Assembly (NCBI GenBank): GCA_025353725.1 | Contig: JANXOF010000037.1 | Coordinates: forward strand, 1-64,000 | Direction: 5' to 3' | Origin: Polyangiaceae bacterium | GTDB lineage: Bacteria; Myxococcota_A; Polyangia; Polyangiales; Polyangiaceae | Length of the DNA stretch: 64,000 bases | Shown: one piece after another, positions 14,617 through 19,074 of the stretch | Layout of the letters: each line of letters starts with the position of its first letter | How positions within the stretch are numbered: the stretch's first letter is position 1 | The notes under the pieces: model-generated | The model's database searches: none | Told to the model about the DNA's origin: nothing | What the model saw: only the letters and a program-made list of their open reading frames with translations | Made by a program: the position numbers and the translations under genes

Positions 14617-15477
14617 ATGCCGTCCCCTGACTCGATTGCGGCTAATGCTGATTCCGTCGCAGGTCGCACGTCGGACGCTGTCCTCGAACGAGTGCGTTTG
14701 CGCTTCTCTTTTTTGAAGGCTCAAACCGCCGAATTAATGGCGTTTCTGTGCTCTAAGCTGCCGACGTCAAGCGTTTTGCCAGACGATGTCCTCGAGCTAG
14801 CCGTTGAAGACTTAGCCCTCGCGCTCGCCTGCGCGGGCGGCGATGTCGACGCACTCCGCTTCTTCGATGCCGAGTACCTCTCCGAGGTTTCCGGCATGGT
14901 GGGGCACATGCGTCTCTCCGCTTCGCAGGTCGATGAAGTGCGCCAGCGACTCCGTGTGGACCTTCTCGTACCGCAAGGCGACGGGCGAGTTCGCCTTCTC
15001 GACTTCGGAGGTCGGGGGAGCCTTTGCGCGTGGCTACGCGTCTCGGCGGTGCGCGTGGCACTCAAGGTTTTGCGCGGGCGTTCGAAAGCCTCTTCCCTCG
15101 ACGACGACAACCGCCTTCTCGAAAAGTGCGCAGGGGACGACGCCGAGCTCGCATTCCTCAAACGAGACGAGCAGCTCGCGTTTCGGGATGTTTTGACGGA
15201 GGCCATGACGTCGCTCGACCCGCGGGATGTGAACCGTTTGAGGCTTCACTACCTCGACGGCCTGTCGCTCGAAGAACTCGCCGCGCTCGAGCGGGTTCAC
15301 CGAGCGACCGTCGCGCGCTGGCTCGGGAGGGCGAGAGAGGCGCTGCTCGCGAACGTGCAACGAATTTTGACCTCGAAAATGCGCTTTAGTGAGTCTGAGT
15401 GCAGCAGCTTTATGCGACTTGCGCAAAGCCGCTTTGACGTGAGTCTGCGGCTTGTCGGGACGCCTCCCAAGGTTTGA
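14617..15477 (+). CDS. Sigma-70 family (ECF-like) RNA polymerase sigma factor
   Basis: The 286-residue protein has a sigma region 4-like end: FRDVLTEAMTSLDPRDVNRLRLHYLDGLSLEELAALERVHRATVARWLGRAREAL contains the usual helix-turn-helix order (quoted here in parts: LRLHYLDGLSLEELA, then VHRATVARWLGRARE). The N-terminal half is a divergent region 2 with a long insert. This matches a Myxococcales-type sigma-70 group found next to Ser/Thr kinases, as here, where a giant kinase starts 103 bases downstream. The kinase carries an anti-sigma-like zinc motif, so it may control this factor. Confidence 0.8.
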   Translation: MPSPDSIAANADSVAGRTSDAVLERVRLRFSFLKAQTAELMAFLCSKLPTSSVLPDDVLELAVEDLALALACAGGDVDALRFFDAEYLSEVSGMVGHMRLSASQVDEVRQRLRVDLLVPQGDGRVRLLDFGGRGSLCAWLRVSAVRVALKVLRGRSKASSLDDDNRLLEKCAGDDAELAFLKRDEQLAFRDVLTEAMTSLDPRDVNRLRLHYLDGLSLEELAALERVHRATVARWLGRAREALLANVQRILTSKMRFSESECSSFMRLAQSRFDVSLRLVGTPPKV

Positions 15478-15579
15478 CGTCGTCGATGGTCCTACCGAAG
15501 CGGGCGTCCGCGCACATCCGGCACGCGACAGTTGACGCCAGCACGCCCCTTGCAACCTTCCGCTGGGGACCGAGGTGGG

Positions 15580-18500
15580 ATGACAAGCCGCGCGCAAGCT
15601 GAACGAAACGATCCCTGCCCCGACGACGACGCGATGCTTGCTCTCGTAGCGGGAACCCTCGAAAAGTCAGTGGATCGCCGGATCCAGCGACACCTGGTCG
15701 ATTGCCAAGATTGTCGTGGGCTCCTCGCGGCATTAGCGCGTAGCGGTGAACGGCCGGTCTACACCTCAGAGCTAACGGCCACGAAAGTAGGTAACCCGCG
15801 CCGCCAAGATATCCTCTTCGAGCGCGGCGAACTCGTAGCGAATCGGTACGTTATTCAAAGATTTGTCGCGCGAGGGGGAATGGGCGAAGTGTACGACGCG
15901 GAGGACGTCGAACTCTCAGAACGCGTCGCTCTCAAAACCGTTCGCCGCGAACTGCTAGCGGATCCCGACGCCATCGCGCGCCTCAAACGCGAGGTCAGCG
16001 TGATGCGCAAAGTGGCCCACCCGTCGGTTTGTCGCATCGCAGAGTTTGGAGAGCACGTCGCAGAGGACGGTCGCGTTCCATTCTTTACGATGGAGTTCAT
16101 CGAGGGGGAGACCCTTGGACAACGCGTTCGCCGAACGGGAGCACTCGCCTTCGACGAGGCGCTTGCGATGGCCACTCAAATCGCGCGCGCGATTGATGCC
16201 GTGCACCGTGCAGGCATTATTCACCGTGACCTGAAAAGCTCAAACGTGCTGCTTGCCGCGGGAGGGCGAGTCGTCGTCACCGACTTTGGCCTCGCCAAGG
16301 TTGCCCTCTCGTCGTCCACCCTTACTCAAGGCGATTTTCTTGGCAGTCCACCTTATGTCTCCCCTGAGCAAGTCGAGGGAAAGGAGGCCGGCGCGGCGTC
16401 GGATATCTACTCTTTTGGAGTCGTTCTTTATGAGATGATTACGGGCGCGTTGCCTTTCTCGGCCGCGACTCCACTGCTCACGATCATGAAGCGGCTTAGT
16501 CATCCGCCCGAGCCGCTCGAAGTCCATCGACCCGATGTTCCAGCGATTTGGAGTCAAGTGGTCCTGACGTGCCTCAATCGCGCGCCGGAAGCCCGCTACG
16601 CGAATGCGATGGAAGCGATTGACATGCTTCGTGGAGTCTCGGACGTTCGGTCCTCGCGCGTGGGGACCAGGCCGCCGCCACCTCCGGCGGCACGACTGTC
16701 ACCACGGCGCCCGAGGTGGATGGCGGTCGCGCTCGCCGCCGGCGCTCTAGGGATAGCGTTCGTTCTAGGGGCGTTCTTCATGCGCCGTCGTCCTGCGCCG
16801 TCCAGCCAAGCCGACGCGGCACGGGCATCCGTCGCCATTGTCGAATTGAGAAACCTTGCGAAACGAACAGACGTCGCTTGGCTATCGACTGCATTCTCGG
16901 AGATCTTGTCGAGCGAGCTTGGTAGCAGTGAACTGCGCGTTGTGACCGGTGAACGAGTCGCCCGCGCGCAGCGTGACCTCGCCCTGCCTGACCGTGATTT
17001 CGATTCGGCGGACGCCGTGAAGCTTCGCGAAAACCTGAGTGCAGATTGGATCGTAACGGGCTCGTTCACCGTTGTAGGGGATGAAAGAGACGGACGCGTC
17101 CGCGTGGACCTTCGCCTGCACGACGCGCGCAACGGAACCGTTGCGCAGCGATTCAATGATGAGGGACCGCGGTCGTCGCTTCTTGAGCTCGCACATCGTT
17201 TGGGAGGTTCACTTCGAGCAAGCGTTGGCGTGTTCGAACGGTCCGCGAATCACTCGGTCGTAACGAAGACCCCCCCGCAAACGGCTGAGGGGTTGCGCCT
17301 CTATGCCGAGGGAATTCAGTTCGCGCGCGGCTATGAATACAAACTCGCAACCGAGCGCTTTACGCAGCTCACCGGGCTCGAACCGCGTTACGCGTTGGGG
17401 CACGCCGAGCTCGCCGCGACGTGGAGCGAACTTGGCGAGCAGCGCAAGGCCGCAAGCGAGGCGACTCTTGCCTATCAGCTAAGTGGGGCATTGCCAGAAG
17501 ACGAACGCTCGCGCATCGAGGCGCTCGGAAGCGAGGTGTCGAGCGATTACGCATCTGCTGTCGAGACCTATCGAAGACTTTGGGAAAAGCACCACGACGA
17601 TATCGGTTATGGGGCGTCGCTTGCGCGCGTCCAAATTCGCCTTGGACGCCCGCAAGATGCCTCGCAGACGGTCGCTGAAATGCAGCGCGTGGGTGGAGAT
17701 GCGGACACGCTAGTGACGGATCAGCTCGGCGCTCACGTGGCACGTGCGTCGCGAGACAGCACTCAACTCACGCGAGCGGCGAGGCGCCTTCGCGAACGAG
17801 CGAATGCGCGTGGTGCGCGCCGGCTCGTTGCCGAAGCCGACCGTTTCGAGGGAATGGCTGCTGCGGAGCTTGGTCGCTGCAGCGAAGCGTTAGAATTCTA
17901 CACGCGCGCGCACCGAGGTTATCTCGAAGTGGGAGACGCACCCAGTGCCGCTAATGTGGTCGACGACATTGCGAACGTATGGCGGACACAGGGAAGACTG
18001 GAGGAGTCGCTCAAGCTTTTTCACGAGGTAGCCGCCGCCAAGCGCGCGATGGGCCAGGTTCGCGGCCTGGGCGTTGAGTTGAACAACATTGGAACGGCGG
18101 AGACTCTTCTCGGTCACTATGACGAAGCCGTCCGCGCTTTCGAGGAGTCCTTAGCGTGTTCAGAGACCGTGAACGTTCCCAGTGGCATCGAGATCGCGCG
18201 GTCGAACCTCGCCGAGATCTATGTCGCGCTGGAGCGGTTCGAGGAGGCTCAGGGAGCGTATGAACGCGTCCTCGAGAAGGCGACCCTTCTTGGCGATCGA
18301 CGGCTCGAGGTCCGAGGTCTGCTCGGGCTCGGAGTCGTCGCGAATCGCCTCGGGAACTTCGCGGAGGCGACAAGGCTTACGAGCCGGGCGCAACGTACGG
18401 CCGAGGCGTTTCACGTCGGAACACTGGATCTTACAGCCATCGTTTTTCGATCTGAAATCGACTTTGAAACGGGGGATTTGGAGGGCGCGCGGACGCGCTT

Positions 18501-19074
18501 GATGGGAGCTTTCGAGCGCCTGAAAAGGTCCGAAGACCAAGAGCTCTTGCTCGTCGCTCTGCCACGCCTTGCGAACCTCCAGCTCGCCTCGGGCGATCTT
18601 GTCGCGGCACGTGGAACGGTGGACGACGCGCATAAGACAATGGCGACTCTTGACCCGACAAATCCACGACTTGCGACATTGACCCGACTCGATGCTGAGC
18701 TCGACTTGGCGTCGGGCGTTCTCGACCGCGCGCGCGCTCTCGCCACGCGCGCGGCCCTCAGCGTCGAAACGGCTAAACTTCCGGGCGAAAGCGCACGAAG
18801 TCACGCGCTTCTTGCGCGCGTCCTTGCCATGTCCGGAGACATGCCCGGCGCGCGAGCCGAGCTCGACCAGGCGGCCGCTGCAGCGGCGCGGAGTTCTGAC
18901 CCGAGGAGCAAGCTTTCGGTAGGCATCGCTCGGGCGTTGTGTGCCAAAGACCGAACTGAGCTTACGCGCCTACAGCGCAGTGCGCGCACGCTTGGTTTTT
19001 CGTTCTTGGCGGTTGAATCCGATGGGCAGTTTCGACGTATGCTCGGTGCTCGCGCAAACGCGAAACTTCACTAA
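15580..19074 (+). CDS. Membrane Ser/Thr kinase with N-terminal anti-sigma-like zinc motif and TPR sensor domain
   Basis: The 1164-residue protein has an N-terminal His-x3-Cys-x2-Cys motif (RHLVDCQDCRGLLAAL, residues about 38-53) like the zinc-binding anti-sigma domain. A complete Hanks-type kinase follows (about 85-345): glycine loop ARGGMGEVYDAED, VALKTV, catalytic HRDLKSSNVLL, TDFGLAK, then SPPYVSPEQ. A Pro-rich linker and one transmembrane helix (about 380-402) lead to a periplasmic TolB-N/FlgO-like domain (about 415-540, DWIVTGSF) and about ten TPR-like repeats to residue 1080. ATG 15580 is preferred over TTG 15532. Position after the sigma gene suggests they act together. Confidence 0.88.
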   Translation: MTSRAQAERNDPCPDDDAMLALVAGTLEKSVDRRIQRHLVDCQDCRGLLAALARSGERPVYTSELTATKVGNPRRQDILFERGELVANRYVIQRFVARGGMGEVYDAEDVELSERVALKTVRRELLADPDAIARLKREVSVMRKVAHPSVCRIAEFGEHVAEDGRVPFFTMEFIEGETLGQRVRRTGALAFDEALAMATQIARAIDAVHRAGIIHRDLKSSNVLLAAGGRVVVTDFGLAKVALSSSTLTQGDFLGSPPYVSPEQVEGKEAGAASDIYSFGVVLYEMITGALPFSAATPLLTIMKRLSHPPEPLEVHRPDVPAIWSQVVLTCLNRAPEARYANAMEAIDMLRGVSDVRSSRVGTRPPPPPAARLSPRRPRWMAVALAAGALGIAFVLGAFFMRRRPAPSSQADAARASVAIVELRNLAKRTDVAWLSTAFSEILSSELGSSELRVVTGERVARAQRDLALPDRDFDSADAVKLRENLSADWIVTGSFTVVGDERDGRVRVDLRLHDARNGTVAQRFNDEGPRSSLLELAHRLGGSLRASVGVFERSANHSVVTKTPPQTAEGLRLYAEGIQFARGYEYKLATERFTQLTGLEPRYALGHAELAATWSELGEQRKAASEATLAYQLSGALPEDERSRIEALGSEVSSDYASAVETYRRLWEKHHDDIGYGASLARVQIRLGRPQDASQTVAEMQRVGGDADTLVTDQLGAHVARASRDSTQLTRAARRLRERANARGARRLVAEADRFEGMAAAELGRCSEALEFYTRAHRGYLEVGDAPSAANVVDDIANVWRTQGRLEESLKLFHEVAAAKRAMGQVRGLGVELNNIGTAETLLGHYDEAVRAFEESLACSETVNVPSGIEIARSNLAEIYVALERFEEAQGAYERVLEKATLLGDRRLEVRGLLGLGVVANRLGNFAEATRLTSRAQRTAEAFHVGTLDLTAIVFRSEIDFETGDLEGARTRLMGAFERLKRSEDQELLLVALPRLANLQLASGDLVAARGTVDDAHKTMATLDPTNPRLATLTRLDAELDLASGVLDRARALATRAALSVETAKLPGESARSHALLARVLAMSGDMPGARAELDQAAAAAARSSDPRSKLSVGIARALCAKDRTELTRLQRSARTLGFSFLAVESDGQFRRMLGARANAKLH

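Follow-up and report, generated by a model that had tools for sequence, protein, structure and literature searches.

Sigma factors of the extracytoplasmic function (ECF) type are described, in the available parts of the papers concerned, as being under control by two separate routes: either an anti-sigma factor keeps them bound, or a Ser/Thr kinase acts as their switch (PMC8103513, PMC8999054). Both control parts, anti-sigma and kinase, seem to be united in one receptor in the stretch of DNA considered here, a window of 64,000 nucleotides from a Polyangiaceae bacterium (assembly GCA_025353725.1, contig JANXOF010000037.1, positions 1 to 64,000). In this window, a gene for a sigma factor of the Sig-70_gmx1 family (gmx1) is followed by a gene for a transmembrane Ser/Thr kinase with an N-terminal zinc anti-sigma-like segment. 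The kinase is probably a one-protein receptor that would work the switch by both gripping and phosphorylating.

The zinc segment resembles the class I zinc anti-sigma factors (ZASD/ASDI: RsiW, ChrR, RslA, RsrA) in its Hx3Cx2C motif with a fourth Cys or His ligand, in profile kinship, in the position of its gene beside that of a sigma factor, and in covariation with sigma4. The available text of PMC4598750 includes Hx3Cx2C and a fourth Cys/His ligand in the definition of the zinc anti-sigma domain, and the class I rule, as given in the accessible part of PMC7406223, is that sigma4 is contacted by helix 1, together with a helix 3 site, and sigma2 by helix 4. Unlike these anti-sigma factors, the window type continues into a Ser/Thr kinase whose motifs are intact and into a receptor built of tetratricopeptide repeats (TPRs), often has little room for the sigma2-binding helix 4, and has a gmx1 sigma factor as its partner.

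On the kinase side, the ECF43 pairs EcfP–PknT and EcfK–PknS are alike in that a Ser/Thr kinase gene adjoins the gene of an ECF-type sigma factor, as in the window. According to the portions available, PknS is transmembrane (PMC13147305), and the ECF43 sigma factors, which lack the acidic DAED motif, are phosphorylated; no zinc anti-sigma domain is mentioned for either pair in those portions (PMC8999054, PMC13147305). The kinase-associated groups named in the available part of PMC8999054 are ECF43, 59, 61, 62, 217, and 283, numbers to which gmx1 could not be matched. The nearest precedent is found in Mycobacterium tuberculosis, where a Ser/Thr kinase acts on a complex of zinc anti-sigma and sigma factor: PknB phosphorylates the anti-sigma factor RshA and SigH is released (PMC8999054, PMC13147305, in the parts available). 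From these same parts, the Mycobacterium system consists of three separate proteins, whereas kinase and zinc domain form one protein here. RsbW-type anti-sigma kinases, whose fold is unrelated to that of Hanks-type kinases, also combine sigma binding and kinase activity in one protein. In contrast to the window kinase, RsbW phosphorylates the anti-anti-sigma factor RsbV, as stated in the accessible text of PMC4598750.

The sigma open reading frame (ORF; 14617–15477, forward strand) encodes 286 amino acids of ECF type, with sigma2 and sigma4. NCBIfam model TIGR03001 (Sig-70_gmx1) matches residues 41–278 with 207.5 bits, above its cut-off of 154.6, and Pfam Sigma70_r4_2 matches residues 192–243 with 31.1 bits (cut-off 25.7). 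Downstream on the same strand lies the kinase ORF (15532–19074), which gives 1180 amino acids from a TTG start; an in-frame ATG at 15580 is a possible alternative start, and the gap after the sigma gene is 54 bases with the TTG or 102 with the ATG. Within 14617–15831, the two genes share one reading frame and are 915 bases apart from start to start. The kinase protein begins with the zinc segment (residues 28–75; 15613–15756), followed by a protein kinase domain with its VALK, HRD, and DFG motifs present (residues 107–357; 15841–16602; Pkinase, 150.1 bits), a single membrane helix at residues 399–417 (16726–16782; Kyte–Doolittle mean 2.33), which is the only strongly hydrophobic stretch, a weakly matching FlgO/LpoB-like part (16822–17145), and TPRs (17302–18921, limits approximate; TPR_12, 71 bits, and other TPR models). 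Since the kinase domain would be cytoplasmic, the part beyond the helix should be periplasmic; the FlgO/LpoB-like part is thus probably periplasmic, and the TPRs are a probable periplasmic sensor. A sequence-only reading of this DNA had proposed just this order, a sigma factor followed by a kinase with N-terminal HxxxCxxC (here HLVDCQDC, residues 54–61), one membrane helix, and TPRs, all of which is confirmed. The TolB-N/FlgO-like domain that it placed between helix and TPRs is less firm, with FlgO at 16.3 bits (cut-off 22.6) and LpoB at 15.5 bits (cut-off 22.3), both present but below threshold; relatives of this part occur in 5 of 60 genomes of the family, and a search for a solved relative found none (best E 0.78). 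Domain databases list the zinc anti-sigma/kinase architecture. No prior description of such a fusion was found in the open literature searched, including PMC2877116, PMC7694542, PMC6791715, and PMC13147305 in their available parts, a coverage outside which most subscription journals lie.

The pairing of a gmx1 sigma factor with a zinc-segment kinase is a family trait. In the phylum, 57 of 377 genomes have a gmx1 sigma factor over the cut-off (at most seven candidates scored per genome). Over-cut-off places among the matches listed gave 140 loci, which, with the window, make a set of 141 loci and 142 sigma ORFs, including a weak second ORF at L157 (86.5 bits). A kinase lies within 3 kb of 111 of the 142, and 96 of these 111 kinases carry HxxxCxxC before the kinase domain. 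The 15 others include L107 and L176, with Glu for His, as well as L112, L132, and L139, whose kinase ORFs overlap the sigma ORF on a long open frame. A second set, 80 named loci from another collection that partly overlaps the first, has a kinase within 3 kb at 57 loci, and at 54 of these the profile finds a zinc segment; Myxococcus, Pyxidicoccus, Archangium, Polyangium, Nannocystis, Minicystis, and Labilithrix are among the genera with the segment. Gene orientation varies among 138 pairs: 81 are divergent and 13 convergent, while the sigma gene comes first in 31 tandem pairs and the kinase gene in 13. Adjacency is thus kept whatever the orientation. The adjacent pair, whose frequency the sequence-only reading had proposed to count, thus recurs in many myxobacterial genomes, and the zinc residues, whose lack of conservation in orthologues that reading had named as evidence against itself, are conserved in most of them (96/111).

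Judged by its ligands and profile, the segment is akin to class I zinc anti-sigma domains. In the window, the pattern is C-x24-H-x3-C-x2-C, with C29, H54, C58, and C61 as putative ligands. All 96 motif-bearing kinases beside gmx1 sigma factors have a fourth ligand 18–29 residues before the His (Cys in 93, His in 3), compared with Cys in 6.3% of 11-residue stretches from the kinase domains of the same proteins, which argues that HxxxCxxC is more than chance. A zinc-segment profile of 24 rows (A1), searched against all Protein Data Bank sequences, matched at E < 0.01 solely anti-sigma proteins (RslA, 2.6e-7; DdvA, 1.3e-5; RsiW, 2.7e-4; ChrR, 7.2e-3 and 8.8e-3) and one CHAT-domain protein (7.4e-4) that shares the matched stretch of DdvA; the anti-sigma character claimed from the letters alone is supported by these matches. 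Similarly, at E up to 1, the NCBIfam anti-sigma models RsrA, general anti-sigma, and ChrR match 22, 22, and 17 of the 24 rows, with scores under their cut-offs for the window row. With Pfam zf-HC2, all 24 aligned members give a match at E up to 1, the best at 2.4e-9; the whole window protein reaches 16.8 bits and the segment alone 20.2, both short of the cut-off of 22.2, which is a library threshold and not a biological feature. In L058, L077, and L102, also kinases beside gmx1 sigma factors, the ligands are all lost together with the surrounding pattern kept, so that these proteins look like zinc-free members of the class I zinc anti-sigma class. The fourth ligand (C29 in the window) and the short stretch after the last Cys (47/96) are features on which the sequence-only reading was silent.

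Direct docking of the zinc segment on sigma region 4 is well supported by covariation, in that opposite charges on the two sides change together. The covariation set comprised 138 of 150 pairs, identical zinc segments having been removed. Of 9,324 sigma/zinc column pairs, the four with the most negative charge correlation were 214/62 (-0.591), 203/52, 205/56, and 202/56 (-0.442; sigma residue first), all at sigma residues 202–214, whereas the best of 54,168 sigma/kinase-domain pairs reached -0.431. When partners were shuffled 1,000 times, two of the shuffles came up to the best value, and none to the second or fourth. Arg62 occurs in 95 of the 107 pairs whose sigma 214 is acidic and in 8 of the 31 where it is not. 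Pair 214/62 also led a mutual-information scan (0.214, against 0.118 for the best of 30 shuffles), in which sigma 90/50, 60/67, and 203/52 likewise exceeded 0.118; a rerun with slightly changed weights gave 0.223 and 0.143 for the first two sigma/zinc pairs and 0.155 for the best sigma/kinase-domain pair. Co-changes were counted along a sigma tree made with FastTree after columns 202, 203, 205, and 214 had been left out, with p as a hypergeometric count. Complementary charge changes fell together on 9 branches both for 214/62 (20 and 20 changes, p = 8.8e-7) and for 203/52 (19 and 24 changes, p = 3.4e-6); both survive correction for 2,299 tests, while the best of 9,940 sigma/kinase-domain tests (2.6e-4) fails correction. 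The sigma stretch with residues 203, 205, and 214 (15223–15258) lies inside the Sigma70_r4_2 span, and the window pair keeps D214/R62, with V205/V56 where 92 of 138 pairs have R/D. The predicted contact fits the class I rule that helix 1 meets sigma4 (PMC7406223, available part); an interaction between zinc segment and sigma factor is what the sequence-only reading had expected. The covarying residues offer ready positions for charge swaps. A joint model of sigma factor and zinc segment via alignment A5 was useless, as short rows were aligned onto the sigma part.

On balance, it is likely that the whole works as follows. The kinase would be a one-protein transmembrane receptor for the sigma factor of the adjacent gene, and its zinc segment would dock on sigma region 4, so that the sigma factor could not work with RNA polymerase; the FlgO-like/TPR part would sense a periplasmic signal and turn the kinase on, and the active kinase would phosphorylate either the linker behind the zinc segment or the bound sigma factor, which would then be let go. 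Within this scheme, the silencing by docking, the direction of the signal, the target of phosphorylation, and the release by phosphorylation are what we infer. More tentative, though far from implausible, is a generalization to a class of myxobacterial receptors, each a single membrane protein that would combine sensor, Hanks-type kinase, and zinc anti-sigma factor, with phosphorylation within its own sigma complex (in cis or in a dimer) making sequestration and phosphorylation a single step.

The default state of this scheme rests on the acidic pair D106/E107 (14932–14937), a DAED-like element of what is presumed to be sigma region 2.2. All 141 aligned members of the gmx1 family have Asp or Glu at residue 107, and 106 is acidic in 84% of the 96 kinase-paired members; unlike in ECF43, the motif is not replaced by uncharged residues and Ser/Thr. 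Such sigma factors should be competent unless held, which favors a bound and silent default with release on signal. With regard to catalysis, 91 of the 96 have a first kinase domain that retains the catalytic Lys and the Asp residues of HRD and DFG, suggesting that catalysis probably matters too; among the five that do not, three have an intact domain further on, one has a second domain in which just VAIK and DFG were matched, and one is a short ORF. A membrane-like stretch follows the first kinase domain in 80 of the 96. Ser, Thr, and Pro abound in the linker (Ser/Thr 16.7% of 3,157 residues in 118 linkers, vs. 8.6% in kinase domains), an excess that was rejected as a sign of phosphorylation because any disordered Pro/Ala-rich linker may show the same. 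As a side observation, the zinc-segment proteins L080, L095, and L115 (probably also L146) have two kinase domains in succession, of which the first is degenerate (HRD reads HGQ or HGH in L080, L095, and L115); the idea of a zinc-keeping pseudokinase clade was dropped for these three, the second domain downstream being intact.

Several observations weigh against the docking or the scheme built on it. No kinase lies within 3 kb of 31 of the 142 sigma ORFs, or at 23 of the 80 named loci, and one zinc-segment kinase in the window's own genome, on contig C75, has no gmx1 sigma factor on its contig. Sigma 90 and 60 beat the 30 shuffles and fall outside region 4, just the first sigma/zinc pair outscores the best sigma/kinase-domain pair in mutual information, and the co-change p weighs all branches alike; pair 205/56 has just 2 co-changes (p = 0.09). 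An independent-pairs test on supported branches, which are too few, gave 4.1 of 8 the same way, 0.6 the other, and 3.3 with no difference (median p = 0.22). A distance-matrix test was mixed: r was 0.354 for sigma/zinc, and 60 draws of as many kinase columns gave 0.240 (sd 0.034); once close pairs were removed, however, sigma/zinc stood at 0.119, below the 0.157 of the whole kinase domain. In the segment itself, no column exceeds 30% Ser/Thr. Finally, 11–76 residues separate the last Cys and the kinase profile (median 31; more than 40 in 29/96), and 47 of the 96 leave 30 residues or fewer; because this stretch is often short, the sigma2-binding helix 4 may be absent in many zinc-segment kinases. 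In RseA, according to the available text of PMC4598750, helices 1–3 fill a sigma4 groove and mask the beta-flap site of sigma4; a zinc segment lacking helix 4 could thus conceivably still inhibit.

The most serious alternative, though an unlikely one, is that the zinc segment is not an inhibitor but a substrate-docking arm, by which the kinase recruits the sigma factor via region 4 and activates it by phosphorylation, as PknT does with EcfP and PknS with EcfK. The retained catalytic residues and the often small room for a fourth helix would suit such an arm, as would three positions in the sigma C-terminal extension (264, 271, and 276) that are 84–95% Ser in the 96 paired members. However, these positions are nearly as conserved in 24 members without a kinase within 3 kb (71–88% Ser, 91–96% Ser or Thr), and the Ser residues were set aside as kinase sites for lack of clear support; furthermore, 141/141 members already have the acidic residue for which phosphorylation would substitute. 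The wider interpretation made from the letters alone, a one-protein switch combining binding and phosphorylation control, stands in part: kinship of the zinc segment, conservation of its ligands, adjacency, and sigma4 contact speak for it, while activation by phosphorylation in the manner of EcfP is opposed by acidic residue 107.

It is improbable that the segment serves the kinase alone, in dimerization or in redox or zinc sensing, with the gene pairing reflecting some other link. The conserved ligands would agree with such a role, and so would the C75 kinase (L207:8839–12357), a full-length paralogue of the window kinase (58% identity; zinc segments 50%, kinase domains 78%) that keeps the ligands without a gmx1 neighbor. 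This paralogue has Val at the Arg62 position, and contig C75 has none of the seven places in the own genome that match the sigma profile (E up to 0.001). Against a purely kinase-directed role, the charges of the segment, and not those of the kinase domain, co-vary significantly with the sigma factor; L058, L077, and L102 keep their neighbor without ligands; and zinc-segment kinases and gmx1 sigma factors co-occur in the four genomes searched with A1. These searches scored 150 of 191 candidates in the window's own genome (G000, 6.6 Mb) and 150 of 394–441 in each of three others, and weak segments may escape them. The own genome has 152 protein kinase matches and two gmx1 sigma factors over the cut-off; HxxxCxxC occurs in one of its 30 best-scoring kinase loci, and the search found three segment-bearing kinases, namely those of the window, C88, and C75, of which the C88 kinase is divergent to the other gmx1 sigma factor. 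Genomes G339, G177, and G355 have at least 150, 153, and 153 kinase matches, with 6, 2, and 1 gmx1 sigma factors over the cut-off and 5, 2, and 1 zinc-segment kinases found, every one beside such a sigma factor; one G177 pair is convergent, with the zinc end 4 kb off and Glu replacing His. Pooled over the four genomes, 10 of 11 gmx1 sigma factors over the cut-off and 10 of 11 zinc-segment kinases found are mutual neighbors. Each of these genomes has about 150 or more kinase matches; across all loci covered by the analysis, zinc segment and gmx1 neighbor together name a likely partner for about 100 kinases.

That an ordinary myxobacterial kinase carries HxxxCxxC by chance would accord with the sub-threshold zf-HC2 score of the window protein, yet is scarcely credible given the fourth ligand in 96/96 motif-bearing relatives and just three segment-bearing kinases found (150/191 candidates scored) against 152 kinase matches in the own genome.

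Zinc segments also occur outside these kinases. G339, G177, and G355 contain nine further zinc-segment ORFs (E up to 1e-4) without a kinase domain; seven have a weak sigma match (30–58 bits) in the 3-kb locus, and L309 and L311 do not. In the latter two, a 505-amino-acid zinc-segment ORF is divergent to a separate high-scoring kinase gene, possibly a split version of the zinc-segment kinase. In a laxer scan of 30 kinase-less gmx1 loci, L061 proved to have a neighboring zinc-segment ORF that scores low as a kinase (24.9 bits), and zinc segments without a kinase match lie adjacent at L051, where the frame is ended by the contig end, and at L161.

Upstream of the sigma genes, a search for a common promoter motif gave gapped-word counts that exceed the dinucleotide shuffle for G+C-rich words only, an excess taken for codon or composition noise. 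The gmx1-type sigma factors without a kinase within 3 kb include those of Corallococcus (L233, L240, L250, L253, L256, L258) and Myxococcus (L246, L252, L257, L261); at L250 and L246, the neighboring ORFs show no obvious sigma partner. Some kinase-less gmx1 sigma factors adjoin a gene of the FHIPEP family, which is linked to type III secretion and flagellar export: L048:4585–6426 and L071:4512–6530 (536 and 565 bits) and, by similarity, L035 and L084.
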